Assembly (NCBI RefSeq): GCF_003449035.1
Contig: NZ_QRGB01000001.1
Span: 2,542,001-2,606,000, forward strand
Direction: 5' to 3'
DNA length: 64,000 nt
Origin: Pedobacter indicus
GTDB lineage: Bacteria > Bacteroidota > Bacteroidia > Sphingobacteriales > Sphingobacteriaceae
Part shown: one piece after another, positions 57,723-63,366 of the stretch
Position numbering within the stretch: position 1 is the stretch's first letter
Layout of the letters: every line of letters starts with the position of its first letter
Position numbers and translations under genes: made by a program
The notes under the pieces: generated by a model
The model's input: the letters and a program-made list of their open reading frames with translations, nothing else
Databases searched by the model: none
What the model was told of the DNA's origin: nothing

Positions 57723-58493
57723 TTATGCTTTTAACTTTTCGATAAAAGGAGAGATTTTATCCAAATAGTCGTCTGTTTCCAATTGCTTGACGAATGCGGT
57801 ACCAACGATAGCACCATCAGCAACCTCAGCTGCCTGTCTAAAACTTTCGCTATTTGATATTCCGAAGCCAATAACAAATGGATTCTTTAAATTCAACTGC
57901 TTAATCCGATTAAAATAAGCCAATCTATCTTCTGATATATCAAGATTTTTGCCAGTTGTAGATGATGAAGAGAGCAAATAAATAAACCCGGTACTAAGTT
58001 CATCTATTTTACGAATTCGCTCATCACTGGTTTGTGGAGTTACTAAAAATATATTGCTTAATCCGTTTTGTGCAAATACGTCCTGGTACAATTCTTCATA
58101 TTCATACATAGGTAAGTCAGGAATAATAACTCCATCGACACCCACTCTCGCACAGGACTCACAAAATCGCTCAACCCCATATTGGATTACAGGATTTACG
58201 TAACCCATCAAGAATACGGGAATAGTAACCCGTTTTCTTAAATCAGCTAACTGTTCAAACAAGACATCCAATGTCATTCCATTCCTCAGTGCCACCTGAG
58301 AAGCATGTTGGATAACCGGACCATCGGCTAGCGGATCAGAATAAGGGAAACCGATCTCCAAAAAGTCAACACCCGAATTTTCCAAGCGCTCTGCAATTTC
58401 AAGCGTACTGTCCAACTTCGGATACCCAGCTGTATAATAGATAGATAGACGATTTTTATCTTCTGTATTAAATAGTTCTTTTATTCTATTCAT
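57723..58493 (-). CDS. trpA: Tryptophan synthase alpha chain
   Basis: A 256-residue TIM-barrel subunit that cleaves indole-3-glycerol phosphate to indole. FLEIGFPYSDPLADGPVIQ carries the catalytic Glu and Asp, and PVFLMGYVNPV, GVIIPDLP and GFIYLLSSSSTTG are family landmarks. The phosphate site is VIGFGISNSES. It is the last gene of the partial trp operon, 33 bases after trpB. Confidence 0.97.
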   Translation of the reverse strand: MNRIKELFNTEDKNRLSIYYTAGYPKLDSTLEIAERLENSGVDFLEIGFPYSDPLADGPVIQHASQVALRNGMTLDVLFEQLADLRKRVTIPVFLMGYVNPVIQYGVERFCESCARVGVDGVIIPDLPMYEYEELYQDVFAQNGLSNIFLVTPQTSDERIRKIDELSTGFIYLLSSSSTTGKNLDISEDRLAYFNRIKQLNLKNPFVIGFGISNSESFRQAAEVADGAIVGTAFVKQLETDDYLDKISPFIEKLKA

Positions 58494-58526: not shown

Positions 58527-59708
58527 TTAAAGCGAAAAATACTTCATATAATTATCAAGGTCTTTATCTCCCCGGCCAGATAAACACACGATTATATGAT
58601 CGTCTTTTTGAAACCTCATTTTCTCCAATTGTGCCAATGCATGTGCGCTCTCAATTGCCGGGATAATCCCTTCCAGCTGAGTCAAAAGTAAGCCTGCTTG
58701 CATTGCTTCATCATCGGTGATACTTACATATTCTACGCGTCCGGTCTCATGTAAGTAAGCGTGTTGAGGTCCAATTCCCGGATAATCCAACCCGGCAGAA
58801 ATTGAATAAGGCTCGATAACCTGACCATCTTCCGTCTGCATCAAAATCGTCCGGCTACCATGGAGCACCCCCTCCTTCCCTAGTACAGAAGTTGCTGCAG
58901 ATTGCCCGCTATGTACACCTTTTCCTGCCGCTTCAGCTGCGATGAGTTTTACACCTTCATCATCCAGAAAATGATAGAACATACCAATTGCATTACTCCC
59001 ACCTCCTACGCATGCCATCACATAATCAGGAAGTTTTCCTGTTCTATCCATAATCTGTTGCTTTGCTTCCGATGAGATGATCGACTGAAAGCGAGCAACC
59101 ATATCAGGGTAAGGATGTGGTCCTACGACAGAACCTATGATGTAGTGCGTATCTACCGGATTATTAATCCAGTCACGGAGAGCCTCATTGGTCGCATCTT
59201 TCAGAGTCTTACTTCCAGATTCTGCGGCAATGACTTTCGCTCCCATCATCTTCATTCTCGCCACATTGGGTGCTTGACGCTCAATATCTACCGCGCCCAT
59301 ATATACCACACATTCCAGACCCTTTAAAGCACAGACTGTCGCTGTTGCAACCCCGTGTTGGCCGGCACCCGTTTCAGCGATAATTCGCTTTTTACCTAAA
59401 TGCTCAGCCAATAATATTTGCCCAATCGTGTTATTAATCTTATGTGCACCAGTATGGTTCAGATCCTCTCTTTTTAAATATATATTGGCTTGATACCGCT
59501 CTGACAAACGCTCCGCTAAATAAAGTGGTGAGGGCCGGCCAACATAATCATGGAGCAGCTTATCGAAATCACGCCTAAAGTTTTCACTCTCCATAATCTT
59601 AATATACTCCTGCCTAAGTTCTTCCACATTCGGATACAACATCTCAGGAATATAGGCTCCTCCAAACTTACCATAGTAGCCTTTATCATTAACTTGGTAT
59701 TTACTCAT
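58527..59708 (-). CDS. trpB: Tryptophan synthase beta chain
   Basis: A 393-residue PLP enzyme that joins indole and serine. [17 protein letters not shown] contains the PLP lysine, [15 protein letters not shown] follows, and the phosphate-binding loop is [15 protein letters not shown]. The N-terminus [16 protein letters not shown] is that of the classical TrpB1 group, consistent with a partner TrpA encoded next. It lies between trpF and trpA. Confidence 0.97.
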
Positions 59709-59725: not shown

Positions 59726-60337
59726 CTATTTTAAAACTGACTTCAGTAAAGTAATGTCCTTTACACCGGGCTCTACTTCGAACCGGGAATTGATATCAAT
59801 ACAATAAAGCCTTCTATCTTCTAACGCTTTTGCACCATACAATGTATCCTTGTCGATTCCTCCGCTCAGAAAATAAGGCGTTTCTTCCTTATAGTTCCCT
59901 AAAACACCCCAATCAAACCGCTTTCCCGAGCCACCATATGAGATCGTTTTCGTATCAAAAAGAAAATAATCCACTACTTGCGTATAGCTCTTCAATTGAT
60001 CGAAATCAAAACCTTGGTCCACACCAAAAGCCTTTATTAATTCCACGTTCTTTTCGCGAACACGTTGGCAAAACTCCGGGCTTTCATTCCCATGCAATTG
60101 CACAGCATCGAATTGATAACGCCTGAGCACGTCGTCAATCGCTTGCTCTGTGGCATCAACAAATACAGCAACCTTCTTAATCTGTTTTAAATCATTCAGA
60201 AAGTCGAGATTACGATCCCCTATATAGCGCTTCGATTTTGGATAAAAGATAAAGCCCATATAATCGGGGCCTAAAGCTGCAACATCCAACACATTAGCTT
60301 GCTCTCGTAGACCGCAAACTTTCGTTTTTACATTCAT
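59726..60337 (-). CDS. trpF: Phosphoribosylanthranilate isomerase
   Basis: A 203-residue TIM-barrel isomerase. The N-terminal [14 protein letters not shown] has the catalytic Cys, [12 protein letters not shown] and [15 protein letters not shown] are family motifs, and FDTK supplies the catalytic Asp, with SGGIDKDT near the phosphate site. Its start overlaps the trpD stop by four bases, and trpB follows 17 bases after its own stop. trpC, which normally lies before trpF, is absent. Confidence 0.95.
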
Positions 60338-61323
60338 TGTTTTAATAGCGCTTTAAATTTGTTAAGTGCATGCCCCCCTAACAAGGACTCTTCTGCTTTA
60401 TAGTAACAATCGCCAAAAGACGCTTGCTGATCAATCGTATTAATAGCAATTGCCGCATTCACTAACACCACGTTGTTCTGAATATCATTCCCTTCCCCGC
60501 TTAAAATCTTTTTAAATATTTTTGCAGCCTCTTCAACAGTTTCTCCACCACGAATTTCTTTTGGATCAATTACTTCAAAACCTAGTTCTTTTACTTTAAC
60601 TATTTGTTCAGCCTGGTGGGTAATAATCTTATAGTCTCCAGTTAACGACACCTCATCATATCCATCCAAAGCGTGAATAATACTAAATTGCTTATCCGTC
60701 TTCTGATATATATAACCATATAAACGCGCCAGCTCCAAACTAAATACACCTACCGATTGGTACACCGGATTTGCCGGGTTAATCATCGGCCCCAACATGT
60801 TAAAGAAAGTTTTAACGCCAAGCTCCTTCCGGATCGGAGCAACACTCTTCATCGCCGGGTGAAAAAGCGGCGCATGGAGAAAACATATATTCGCTTCGTC
60901 CAATGATCTTGAAATCTCATCCTGATCGTTAGAAAACTGGTAGCCCAAGTACTCCATGACATTCGAGGAACCACAACCAGATGACACGCCATAATTACCA
61001 TGTTTCGCTACTTTATGTCCGGAACCGGCTACGATAAACGACGCTAAAGTGGAAATATTAAACGTATTTTTTCCGTCGCCCCCAGTACCGCATAAGTCGA
61101 TTAATTGATAACCGTTGTAGTCGCGCTTTAAACTCAGGTCATACATGGAGTCCCTAAAGCCCGCCAACTCCTCTTCACGAATCGAACGCATACTGTATGC
61201 AGTCATAAAAGCCGCTATTTGTGAAAGATTATACTTTCCGGTAGCAATATTAGTTAAGATTTCATGGGCTTCCTTCCGACTAAAGCTGCGATGCTCAAAT
61301 AGGTGATTTAAAATTTTTTTCAT
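60334..61323 (-). CDS. trpD: Anthranilate phosphoribosyltransferase
   Basis: A 329-residue enzyme joining anthranilate and PRPP. The PRPP motif is LCGTGGDGKNTFNIST (about 79-94), followed by KHGNYGVSSGCGSSNVMEYLG and FFNMLGPMINPANP. It is the first structural gene behind the leader peptide and terminator. trpE and trpG, which normally precede it, are not in the window. Its ATG lies only 9 bases after the attenuator T tract, so read-through of the terminator directly sets its expression. Confidence 0.97.
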   Translation of the reverse strand: MKKILNHLFEHRSFSRKEAHEILTNIATGKYNLSQIAAFMTAYSMRSIREEELAGFRDSMYDLSLKRDYNGYQLIDLCGTGGDGKNTFNISTLASFIVAGSGHKVAKHGNYGVSSGCGSSNVMEYLGYQFSNDQDEISRSLDEANICFLHAPLFHPAMKSVAPIRKELGVKTFFNMLGPMINPANPVYQSVGVFSLELARLYGYIYQKTDKQFSIIHALDGYDEVSLTGDYKIITHQAEQIVKVKELGFEVIDPKEIRGGETVEEAAKIFKKILSGEGNDIQNNVVLVNAAIAINTIDQQASFGDCYYKAEESLLGGHALNKFKALLKQ

Positions 61324-61331
61324 TTTCGTTC

Positions 61332-61361
61332 AAAAAAAAAGCTTGTCGTTTATCGACAAGC
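61332..61361 (-). terminator. trp attenuator terminator
   Basis: On the minus strand, GCTTGTCG-ATAAA-CGACAAGC (61361-61341) forms a perfect 8-bp stem with a five-base loop, followed by nine T residues (61340-61332). It lies between the Trp-rich leader peptide and trpD, the position of an attenuator. Confidence 0.88.
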
Positions 61362-61410
61362 CTCTGTTCCTTATTATAAAATATTAATGTATAGAAGTCA
61401 TGTCACAAGG

Positions 61411-61458
61411 TTATCCTTTGTGCCACCACCAGTTAATATTTACGTTATTATTATTCAT
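61411..61458 (-). CDS. trpL: trp leader peptide with three consecutive Trp
   Basis: A 15-residue reading frame on the minus strand, MNNNNVNINWWWHKG, ends 50 bases before the terminator stem. Three adjacent TGG codons are what ribosome-stalling control by tryptophan requires. Just after them CACAAAGG and CCTTGTG can pair across the stop codon as a 1:2 (pause) hairpin. When tryptophan is scarce a ribosome stalled at the Trp codons would disrupt this hairpin and favour read-through into trpD. An exact antiterminator pairing was not worked out. Confidence 0.88.
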   Translation of the reverse strand: MNNNNVNINWWWHKG

Positions 61459-61473
61459 TCTCTGTTATGAAGC

Positions 61474-61505
61474 CAAATATGAATAATAATTTTGAAACAT
61501 GCAAA
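61474..61505 (-). promoter_or_regulatory. Putative trp operon promoter
   Basis: On the minus strand TTTG (61505-61502) and CATATTTG (61481-61474, one mismatch to TAnnTTTG) are separated by 20 bases, the usual Bacteroidota spacing. The -7 box lies about 15 bases before the leader peptide ATG. Confidence 0.55.
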
Positions 61506-61525: not shown

Positions 61526-61855
61526 TTATTCCGTTATCGCCGTATCAATTGCATCCAAAGAATCCATTGTTGCACTATCAACGGGTGTATCGTCTAACAC
61601 AGTTGCATTATTTTCTACAGAGCGGATACCTCTCGTTTTTCTCGCTGCATTTTCGGCAACAATCCGATCCACCTCATTTTCAAACTGACCACTAAATGTT
61701 GCTACCCCATCTTCGACAACAACATCCACCCCTGCTGGCAAGCTTTCCTCAATCGCCTGTTGTGCCTTCACATCCGTTTTATTAGGAGAAGAACAAGCAA
61801 AAATCAATAGACTCACCATCATTAATACCGGAAAAAAGAAATTGAACTTTTTCAT
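61526..61855 (-). CDS. BON-domain lipoprotein
   Basis: A 109-residue lipoprotein with lipobox LLIFACSSP (Cys21). The mature part is one BON domain (DVKAQQAIEESLPAGVDVVVEDGVATFSGQFENEVDRIVAE and IRSVENNATV), a phospholipid-binding fold often found in osmotic-shock proteins. The C-terminal tail is acidic. It lies just upstream of the trp promoter on the same strand and is probably monocistronic. Confidence 0.85.
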   Translation of the reverse strand: MKKFNFFFPVLMMVSLLIFACSSPNKTDVKAQQAIEESLPAGVDVVVEDGVATFSGQFENEVDRIVAENAARKTRGIRSVENNATVLDDTPVDSATMDSLDAIDTAITE

Positions 61856-62029: not shown

Positions 62030-62638
62030 ATGATTGCTGTTTTGACGGGTGACATCGTAAATTCATCCAAAATTGATATTAATGAATGGCTACCTCTGCT
62101 AAAAAAAAGTCTTTCACAATTTGGCGAAACGCCTGCCGATTGGGATATTTATCGTGGGGACAGTTTTCAACTAAAAATAAACAAACCTGAAGGAGCCCTT
62201 CAAGTCGCTCTAGCTATCAAAGCATCTATTAAAACAATTAAAGATCTTGATATTAGAATATCGATCGGGTTTGGCGATATTAACCACTCCGCAAAGCGCG
62301 TCACGGAATCCAACGGCAGTGCATTTATCTATTCGGGAGAAAAGTTTGAAACCTTAAAAAAGGACAAGATAAACCTGGCAGTCAAAAGTGATAGGCAAGA
62401 TTTCGATTCCGATATCAACATGTTCCTGCGCTTGGCTCTGCTTATCATGGATCACTGGACTGAAAATTCAGCCGAAATCGTCAGCTTAGCTCTCAAATAT
62501 CCAGAAAAATCACAAGCGGAGTTGGGTGAGTTGATCGGTATTAAACAGAACACCGTCAGTACGCGACTTAAGCGATCGGCTTTTGAAGAAATACTCGCAA
62601 TGGACGCTTTATTTCGCGATAAACTAAAGAGACTGTAA
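62030..62638 (+). CDS. SatD-family protein
   Basis: A 202-residue cytoplasmic protein. The N-terminus AVLTGDIVNSSKID and YRGDSFQLKI, followed by IRISIGFGDI and SGEKFETLKKDKINLAV, fit the SatD family, a cyclase-like fold. A C-terminal helix-turn-helix segment (KSQAELGELIGIKQNTVSTRLKRS, about 163-186) suggests DNA binding. Its stop overlaps the next gene's start by one base. SatD was first linked to acid tolerance and secretion in streptococci; the biochemical role is not known. Confidence 0.82.
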   Translation: MIAVLTGDIVNSSKIDINEWLPLLKKSLSQFGETPADWDIYRGDSFQLKINKPEGALQVALAIKASIKTIKDLDIRISIGFGDINHSAKRVTESNGSAFIYSGEKFETLKKDKINLAVKSDRQDFDSDINMFLRLALLIMDHWTENSAEIVSLALKYPEKSQAELGELIGIKQNTVSTRLKRSAFEEILAMDALFRDKLKRL

Positions 62639-63366
62639 TGATCGTATTATTAAAACTGCTATTCGCGCACCTTTTGGGGGACTTTATCCTGCAACCAACC
62701 AAATGGGCCAAAGCCAAAGAGCAATTGAAAATCAAAGCATACCAGCTATATATCCACATCGCGATCCATTTTGCATTGGTGATGCTCTTCATGTGGAACT
62801 GGAATTTCTGGCCGTGGGCACTGATTATCGCCAGCAGTCACCTGATCATCGATAGCCTAAAGATCTATCTACAAACAAAGAAAAATGCGAGACTGCTGTT
62901 TTTCATCGATCAGTTATTACACCTTTTGGTAATTTTAACGATCTGGGTTCTCTATAGACAAGACGTCTTGGCTTGGTTTCAAACTGTCGACCAGACCACC
63001 TTTACTCAAGTTATGCTTTGGACGCTCACCTTTGTTTTTTTAACAAAACCCTTGTCGATCGCCGTTCGGATTTTCATCTCAAAATGGACGCCTGATACAG
63101 CAAATAAAGAAGATGACTCCTTAGAAAGCGCAGGCGAATATATAGGCTACCTAGAGCGTTTACTGATCTTCTTATTTATCGTAATCGATCACTGGGAAGG
63201 TGTTGGTTTTCTTTTGGCTGCGAAATCTATTTTCCGCTTCGGCGACCTTACTGCTTCCAAAGACCGCAAGTTGACAGAATATGTCCTCATCGGAACGCTC
63301 GTAAGCTTCGGCAGCGCTATCGCCGCTTCGCTTCTATTCAAATATGGTCTAGCTTTAATCAGCTAA
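62638..63366 (+). CDS. DUF3307-family membrane protein
   Basis: A 242-residue membrane protein of about six helices. The N-terminus LLKLLFAHLLGDFILQPTKWAK and HIAIHFALVMLF match the DUF3307 pattern, whose conserved Asp and His residues lie in the membrane. It is translationally coupled to the SatD gene (ATGA overlap) and the two families are found together widely, so they probably act as a pair of regulator and membrane partner. Confidence 0.85.
   Translation: MIVLLKLLFAHLLGDFILQPTKWAKAKEQLKIKAYQLYIHIAIHFALVMLFMWNWNFWPWALIIASSHLIIDSLKIYLQTKKNARLLFFIDQLLHLLVILTIWVLYRQDVLAWFQTVDQTTFTQVMLWTLTFVFLTKPLSIAVRIFISKWTPDTANKEDDSLESAGEYIGYLERLLIFLFIVIDHWEGVGFLLAAKSIFRFGDLTASKDRKLTEYVLIGTLVSFGSAIAASLLFKYGLALIS

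Follow-up and report, generated by a model that had tools for sequence, protein, structure and literature searches.

The trpD half of the tryptophan pathway and the element before it

Within the window (the whole stretch of Pedobacter indicus DNA analysed, 64,000 nucleotides long) four genes of tryptophan biosynthesis follow a candidate attenuator on the minus strand in the order trpD, trpF, trpB, trpA: trpD, encoding anthranilate phosphoribosyltransferase (60334–61323; TIGR01245, 305 bits), trpF (59726–60337), trpB (58527–59708; TIGR00263, 601 bits) and trpA (57723–58493; TIGR00262, 236 bits). The trpF candidate is matched best in NCBIfam by NF002298 (163 bits, under that model's cut-off of 215), and each of the 13 families listed for it is TrpF or a bifunctional protein containing TrpF. 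The best-matching named relative, Albibacterium bauzanense (Sphingobacteriaceae), has a trpD that is 84% identical. Tryptophan is scarce in the pathway enzymes themselves: TrpD, TrpE, TrpA and TrpC contain none, TrpF and TrpB one residue each, and TrpG three.

Directly upstream, in the same direction, is a small gene for a lipoprotein-like product that matches OsmY weakly (61526–61855, minus strand). A consensus scan found no terminator between this gene and the trp promoter and leader, and read-through from it into the trpD leader is possible. Further upstream, on the plus strand, 62030–62638 encodes a 202-residue protein with a weak match to the sigma-70 family at residues 121–183, adjoined by a gene for a hydrophobic protein (62638–63366).

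The element before trpD is on the minus strand throughout. It begins with a -33-like TTTG (61502–61505, the top-scoring site upstream of the leader) and, 20 bases from it, the -7 element CATATTTG (61474–61481; consensus TAnnTTTG). Together, TTTG-N20-CATATTTG matches the consensus at 9 of 10 positions; the pair is of the Bacteroidota type and not a sigma-70 promoter. It would place the transcription start at 61469 and give the leader an 11-nt 5′ UTR. A sigma-70 candidate (ATGACT/TATAAT) between the leader ORF and the terminator was rejected: eight such sites occur compared to 4.5 (sd 1.8) in shuffled sequence, and the Bacteroidota-type pair fits better.

The leader ORF (61411–61458) has its ATG at 61458 and its TAA at 61413–61411, and encodes the 15-residue peptide MNNNNVNINWWWHKG. 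Its three tandem TGG codons, the putative sensor, occupy 61423–61431; the second and third are invariant columns in an alignment of 30 sequences (A1). The stop codon lies in the loop of a hairpin whose core (helix 1:2, 61404–61422; CACAAAGG-AUAA-CCUUGUG) is defined by folding and covariation and may act as pause or anti-antiterminator. In the minimum-energy fold this hairpin reaches further, the bases of the Trp codons being paired with CAU and ACU of region 2. Region 2 itself (GACAUGACUUCU, 61393–61404) forms the 5′ side of an antiterminator (2:3): when the nascent RNA is folded without region 1 it pairs with 61365–61355, that is, with region 3 (61355–61365), which by folding is common to the antiterminator and the terminator. 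An AU-rich spacer separates the stop-codon hairpin from the terminator hairpin. The intrinsic terminator 3:4 with its tail spans 61332–61365 (hairpin 61365–61337, nine T at 61340–61332). Its perfect 8-bp core, GCUUGUCG/CGACAAGC, becomes 12 pairs when the A/U extension is counted, with the loop AUAAA (-16.1 kcal/mol, z -5.67). Eight bases lie between the last T and the trpD ATG (61323). The complete 147-nt leader RNA is stable (-31.9 kcal/mol, z -4.67), and none of 200 shuffled sequences equals it.

A reading of this stretch made from its letters (hereafter the sequence-only reading) had pointed to a promoter-like pair, a 15-residue leader with three TGG in a row, a possible pause hairpin over the stop codon and an 8-bp terminator with nine T, and all four are borne out at these places. 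It had also called for folding of the leader and for comparison with relatives, and both agree with it. Absent from its account were the antiterminator (61404–61393 with 61365–61355), the split of the operon and a second attenuator before trpE.

Tandem Trp codons compared to chance

Three consecutive TGG were rejected as sole evidence: the pattern occurs 43 times on both strands of the 3.47-Mb genome, compared to 35 times for a reversed control pattern. Seven of the 43 sites are in frame within a short ORF (ATG start, 45 codons at most); in two of these seven a strong terminator (-15.7 and -15.8 kcal/mol) lies within 150 bases after the stop codon; of the remaining five, three have no terminator and two have hairpins of -4.4 and -2.0 kcal/mol. 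The two sites combining a short ORF with a strong terminator adjoin trpE and trpD. This combination exceeds chance.

A second candidate attenuator before trpE

In the same genome trpE, trpG and trpC lie apart from the trpD half (contig C1, 538942 onward). Directly before trpE is a second candidate attenuator (L003 1520–1660, equivalent to G000:C1:538801–538941), with a leader peptide of M(M)NNTYTTSWWWCNK ending at its stop codon, a terminator arm ACCCGACG and a terminator of -15.7 kcal/mol. By these features both halves of the pathway carry a Trp attenuator, the one before trpE being built differently in regions 2 to 4. The position of an attenuator before trpD is thereby explained: the operon is split, with a separate sensor usually standing before each half.

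The Bacteroid-trp model (RF01692) matches the trpE-side element with 31.2 bits (E 0.2), which is chance level, and as evidence by itself this match was discarded, since 7 of 14 control genomes also match at that threshold; it counts only because a leader and a terminator adjoin it. The match of RF00513 to the trpE copy is likewise weak (23.3 bits, cut-off 41).

Distribution in the Sphingobacteriaceae

Leaders were sought in 61 genomes of the family as ORFs of at most 45 codons containing WW, and the terminator was taken as the best hairpin with a T run within the same segment. Fifty genomes have a strong trpE match and 49 of these also a strong trpD match. Among 48 trpD upstream regions of at least 300 nt, 41 contain a WW leader (WWW in 31) and three more a WxW leader (G012, G020 and G054); among 50 trpE upstream regions, 40 contain WW (WWW in 28) and six more WxW (G007, G013, G022, G035, G049 and G060). 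The replacements for WW are WLW, WRW, WCW and WQW. In the 48 genomes where both upstream regions are readable, WW is found at both halves in 35, and WW or WxW at both in 44; such a leader is absent from either half in four (G002, G008, G027, G043). Named Sphingobacteriaceae loci, which overlap with the genome sample, give the same picture for trpD: WW in 67 of 69 and WWW in 63 of 69, the two misses being L083 and L086.

For the comparisons below, the leaders were reduced to 96 distinct sequences before trpD and 39 before trpE, many of them closely related (28 and 28 after thinning). Identical sequences, L096 (183 nt upstream), L087 (trpD at the contig end) and other outgroup loci were left out of the trpD set. 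Outside the Trp codons the peptide is highly variable, save for a frequent adjacent His (60 of 96).

Some members of the family depart from this pattern. In G002, G027 and G043, all of one genus (g3), the tandem Trp codons are gone at both halves and a strong hairpin with a T run is kept before trpE; in G002 and G043, which match L083 and L086, one is kept before trpD too. Attenuation has perhaps been lost or changed in this genus. Eight small genomes of 1.7–2.0 Mb (G005, G010, G030, G033, G046, G048, G058, G059) give no trpD match and only a weak trpE-like one, and are perhaps those of tryptophan auxotrophs. In G020 the trpD match (C77:51092–52071) falls into two pieces that overlap, and the second contains an internal TAA, which suggests either a disrupted gene or an assembly error. 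About 340–440 bases upstream of trpE in G013, on the opposite strand, is a segment resembling Flavo-1 RNA (L177 401–496; 38.4 bits, cut-off 42).

Covariation in the three helices

In 30 aligned leaders from the 96 of the trpD class, changes on both sides occur in five of the seven pairs of helix 1:2 and in four of the eight core pairs of 3:4. Taken together, nine of 15 pairs have changed on both sides, and none of 500 shuffles matches the covariation score. In the terminator 98.3% of alignment cells are paired; sliding the partners by one to three columns reduces the paired cells of 1:2 and 3:4 from 92.8% to 51% or less.

For the antiterminator the two classes differ. In the trpD class 86.6% of cells of 2:3 pair (53% or less when slid), but with both-sided changes in two of five inner pairs the covariation is slight; the inner helix, GGCAA with UUGCC, is largely conserved (96.7% of cells paired). 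In the 39 leaders of the trpE class 68.9% of cells pair (41% or less when slid), six of nine pairs have changed on both sides (reached by 14 of 500 shuffles) and the covariation score is reached by none of 500; further pair types in this helix are no better than in shuffles (404 of 500).

An alignment-free test, in which the partner segment is exchanged among the 28 thinned leaders of each class, gave 0 of 10,000 for 1:2 and for 3:4 in both classes. For 2:3 it gave 1 of 10,000 in the trpE class (negative controls 7690 and 3216 of 10,000), compared to 210 of 10,000 in the trpD class (203 of 5000 in an earlier version), where the negative controls gave 433 (1:3) and 9086 of 10,000. Covariation of 2:3 in the trpD class hardly beats the 1:3 control and was dropped as an argument. 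Covariation thus supports 2:3 for the trpE leaders. For the trpD leaders it does not clearly do so, and there the case draws on conservation and folding together with the evidence from the trpE class.

Folding with the ribosome in place

To model the switch, RNA was left free ahead of the ribosome up to the end of the terminator 5′ arm, and the probability that this arm is held by upstream RNA was scored for a ribosome whose P site is occupied by the first Trp codon ("at Trp") or by the last sense codon ("at stop"). The arm is held with a probability of 0.86 at Trp and 0.25 at stop in the trpD class (n = 96), and of 0.80 and 0.17 in the trpE class (n = 39), compared to 0.31 and 0.50, respectively, without a ribosome. 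All of the 96 trpD leaders and 38 of 39 trpE leaders score higher at Trp than at stop. The at-Trp value is also above that without ribosome for 91 of 96 and 29 of 39, respectively, and a difference in the opposite direction is never larger than 0.05. Dinucleotide shuffling of the upstream RNA lowers the at-Trp value to 0.53 (trpD) and 0.49 (trpE). Given that more RNA is free without a ribosome, and that shuffles reach only these values, the length of free RNA is not the full reason for the effect.

For the trpD leader of the window the arm is held with a probability of 0.79 at Trp, 0.31 at stop and 0.53 without ribosome; two of 30 shuffles reach 0.79, and its 2:3 fold is no better than shuffles (z -0.98, 25 of 200). 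Judged from this one leader, the ribosome-position effect is thus only mildly convincing. In other Bacteroidota families a leader with a terminator is found in 30 of 31 loci scanned (not in L278), and the at-Trp value is the higher of the two in 28 of these 30; in the two exceptions, L077 and L283, the ORF chosen by the script differs from the WWW leader.

Geometry provides further information. From the start of the first Trp codon to that of region 2 the median distance is 26 nt in the trpD class and 22 nt in the trpE class, whereas the stop codon precedes region 2 in the trpD class (median offset +7) and comes after it in the trpE class (-15.5); the scan covered 108 trpD and 40 trpE leaders, of which 12 and one were later dropped as outgroup or duplicate. 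The distance to region 2 is kept from the Trp codons and not from the stop, as expected if a stalled ribosome sets the switch.

Promoters and probably leaderless trpE leaders

A promoter scoring at least 9 of 10 precedes 39 of 96 trpD-class and 36 of 39 trpE-class leaders, where base shuffles predict 3.5 and 2.3. Two of the 36 trpE leaders have no in-frame ATG in reach; in the 34 that could be placed, from the loci L118–L147 and L167–L186, the -7 box is followed by the first in-frame ATG at a distance of 4 to 9 bases, although several have a further ATG downstream and the true start may differ. The corresponding distance is 5 to 18 bases for the 39 trpD-class leaders with such a promoter, and mostly 5–7 or 16–18 bases for 22 placed RF01692 loci of other families. 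In the window, 4 of 17 genes have a score of at least 9, a control too small to lean on.

The Flavobacterium psychrophilum study from which the consensus derives places the -7 box at -12 to -5 (PMC9723704). With the box in this position the trpE leaders would have 5′ UTRs of 0 to 5 nt, and the trpE-side leaders are probably leaderless. Leaderless transcripts make up 5.5% of mapped mRNAs in F. psychrophilum according to the same account, and about 3.7% of 5′ UTRs are reported to be shorter than 10 nt in Bacteroides thetaiotaomicron (PMC7366714). To judge from the promoter positions, leaderless translation, which these sources report for only a few per cent of Bacteroidota mRNAs, may serve for sensor peptides.

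Relation to known attenuators

The E. coli trpL attenuator works by stalling at Trp codons and by the helices 1:2, 2:3 and 3:4. The E. coli element (RF00513, Trp_leader) and the element before trpD are alike in both the stall and the helix set; they differ in that the latter has a Bacteroidota promoter, a predicted 5′ UTR that is very short or absent, and two copies on the halves of the operon. RF00513 gives no match in the trpD region among Rfam matches at E up to 5.

Closer to hand is RF01692, Bacteroid-trp, which matches the trpD leader over its full length (1–131) with 47.9 bits; E ranges from 6.3e-5 to 3.8e-4 with the number of bases searched and is 1.7e-4 over the whole genome. The gathering cut-off is 49 bits, and the 64-kb window contains no match at that level. 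The features of the family are nonetheless all present: a leader with Trp codons (WWW), a hairpin at its end, the terminator arm AGGCUUGUC, a position upstream of trp genes and a host in the Bacteroidota. Judged by score and features, the trpD element is a divergent member of this known family; the sequence-only reading was right that an attenuator stands before trpD, but the class of element had already been described. Bacteroid-trp dates from 2010, when it was reported as a candidate cis-regulatory RNA in Bacteroidetes (Weinberg et al., PMC2864571); later papers note it before the F. psychrophilum trp operon (PMC6414381) and suggest leader-peptide attenuation for that species' amino acid operons (PMC9723704). 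Of the 29 best-scoring RF01692 loci taken from other genomes, 28 are followed by trpE and one by trpB; in P. indicus trpD follows. At its curated cut-off RF01692 misses the leaders in the P. indicus genome, in 39 relatives' upstream regions and in six matching family genomes of 296 sampled; at E up to 3 it matches 8 of 19 relatives' trpD upstream regions (none over the cut-off) and 0 of 20 trpE upstream regions.

A model of our own (R1) was built from 30 chosen leaders of the 96 in the trpD class, 23 of which have a GGCYUG arm; the model is rich in such rows, and matches to outgroups with AGGCUUG are therefore favoured. Run against the whole P. indicus genome, R1 picks out the trpD leader with 78.9 bits, ahead of 12 matches of 18.6–28.7 bits. 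The trpE leader is absent from these genome matches (29.6 bits when scored apart), and R1 thus does not show homology of the two leaders. R1 scores at least 43 bits in 23 of 29 RF01692 loci of other families and no more than 41.1 across 50 Sphingobacteriaceae trpE loci; before trpE in ten loci with an intact operon (L076–L082, L084, L085, L088) it scores 26.6 to 50.9 bits, so that the ranges overlap. By these measures, the matches of Rfam's own model included, trpD-class leaders resemble intact-operon attenuators more closely than they do the trpE-class leaders of the Sphingobacteriaceae.

Terminator arms contain GGUUG in 53 and GGCYUG in 37 of the 96 trpD-class leaders; in the trpE class they contain CCCG or CCUG in 36 of 39 and AAGCUUGUC in three. 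Among 30 leaders from other families, 16 have AGGCU and five (L267, L282, L284, L288, L289) have CCCG, like the trpE class. That the trpD switch is ancestral and the trpE switch derived is not proved: CCCG arms occur outside the family, in these five of 30.

Beyond the phylum, the trpL1 leader of the actinobacterium Streptomyces lividans also has WWW, a leaderless transcript before trpE and a second Trp attenuator in the genome, which stands at trpS (PMC8079986). In a literature search with thin coverage of subscription journals, none of the papers listed deals, to judge from title and opening of the abstract, with two attenuators of a split trp operon in Bacteroidota, which is a weak negative.

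Mechanism and rival explanations

We conclude, with a probability of roughly 0.93, that the trpD element is a trpL-type ribosome-mediated transcription attenuator heading the trpD-F-B-A half of a split operon. It has conserved tandem Trp codons (WWW) in a leader ORF and a terminator just before the first structural gene; for the antiterminator the evidence is folding, seen in all 96 trpD-class leaders with a shuffle control. Transcription would start about 11 nt before the leader ATG. When charged tRNA-Trp is scarce, a ribosome would stall at the three Trp codons and cover region 1, leaving region 2 free to pair with region 3, the 5′ arm of the terminator, so that polymerase would continue into trpD. 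When tryptophan is plentiful, the ribosome would reach the stop codon and cover region 2, terminator 3:4 would form, and transcription would stop 8 bases before trpD. The second attenuator would control trpE-G-C by the same logic, both halves reading the same signal. Translation of the leader, stalling, read-through and the response to tryptophan are all inferred here. The sequence-only reading had spoken of direct evidence for ribosome-mediated attenuation; this is indeed the best explanation and the comparison is strong, but the support is comparative and not direct.

One rival is that the leader is a relic, the terminator merely insulating trpD-F-B-A from the lipoprotein gene at 61526–61855 and the WWW peptide no longer serving as sensor. 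No terminator was found between that gene and the leader, and the leader hairpin could therefore be its terminator; furthermore, G002, G027 and G043 keep a hairpin and T run before trpE (G002 and G043 also before trpD) with no tandem Trp codons. Yet the Trp codons and helices 1:2 and 3:4 are conserved across genera while most other positions of the peptide change, and the predicted dependence on ribosome position is found in 96 of 96 leaders, which leaves this rival a very slim chance. A terminator with a competing antiterminator is also common to mechanisms in which an RNA-binding protein, a small-molecule riboswitch or a T-box acts and the ORF is incidental. We regard these as next to negligible: neither the Rfam matches of the region (E up to 5) nor those of the window (gathering level) include a riboswitch or T-box family, and three in-frame Trp codons are similarly spaced from region 2 in both classes (26 and 22 nt). 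Lastly, the terminated leader RNA or the peptide might, besides its role in cis, also act in trans on other mRNAs, as is reported for the Sinorhizobium meliloti trp leader (PMC7298713). That precedent is all that speaks for it, and with peptide and leader poorly conserved outside the functional parts we give such action a slim chance.

The trpL-type attenuator before trpD is real, almost certainly functional and of a known kind. Its mechanism is textbook; the arrangement is a natural experiment, with one signal and two differently built attenuators in one cell, a pair retained in most sampled genomes of the family after an interleaved split. The pair also provides an internal control for how attenuation is tuned by the number of Trp codons, the distance to region 2 and the presence of a 5′ UTR.

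Operon order in other Bacteroidota and origin of the split

The outgroup comprised 32 further regions and ten earlier ones from other Bacteroidota families, among them nine (L290–L298) fetched because RF01692 matched them. All but one of the 42 have trp genes; the exception is L295, whose RF01692 match of 34.9 bits with no trp gene probably arose by chance. In all 41, trpC follows trpD, and trpG precedes trpD in 40, the exception (L268) being a region that starts with trpD close to the end of a contig. Most have the order E-G-D-C-F-B-A, and B-E-G-D-C-F-A in L285; contig ends cut some regions, L271 has a gap of about 3 kb from trpF to trpB, and in L276 no trpF, trpB or trpA lies within 4.5 kb after trpC. 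WW leaders precede the first trp gene in 31 of 41; of the ten loci where none was found, L268, L273 and L275 lack upstream sequence (contig ends) and L281 has 163 nt of it. WW-containing ORFs before trpD in the outgroup (L284, L079, L080, L085) overlap trpG.

The Sphingobacteriaceae partition, E-G-C versus D-F-B-A, is interleaved with respect to this order. A single cut of the usual order cannot yield it; duplication followed by complementary loss can, and would account for both attenuators at once. Alternatively, trpC may have moved or one half may have been transferred. Trees do not decide on horizontal transfer: those for E-G-C and for D-F-B-A (FastTree, midpoint-rooted, with 15 Sphingobacteriaceae loci each, mostly from different genomes) each place the family in one clade with support 1.0. 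Its nearest neighbours are L280, L081 and L269 (0.88) in the E-G-C tree, and in the D-F-B-A tree a mixed group of 22 (0.78), with L269 and L081 next (0.95); these differences between the trees appear too weak to decide.

Tentatively, and with a good deal more doubt than confidence, we suggest that attenuator-E-G-D-C-F-B-A was duplicated in the ancestor of the Sphingobacteriaceae and that the copies lost complementary genes. The pair of attenuators would then have diverged, the trpD copy remaining near those of intact operons with a short 5′ UTR and the trpE copy acquiring a different switch sequence, translated from a leaderless transcript. Two sensors of different build would then respond to the same tRNA signal, one serving the branch-point enzymes and the other the remaining enzymes. 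Since most trpD-class leaders have an arm other than AGGCUUGYC, the odds of this scenario are slightly lower.
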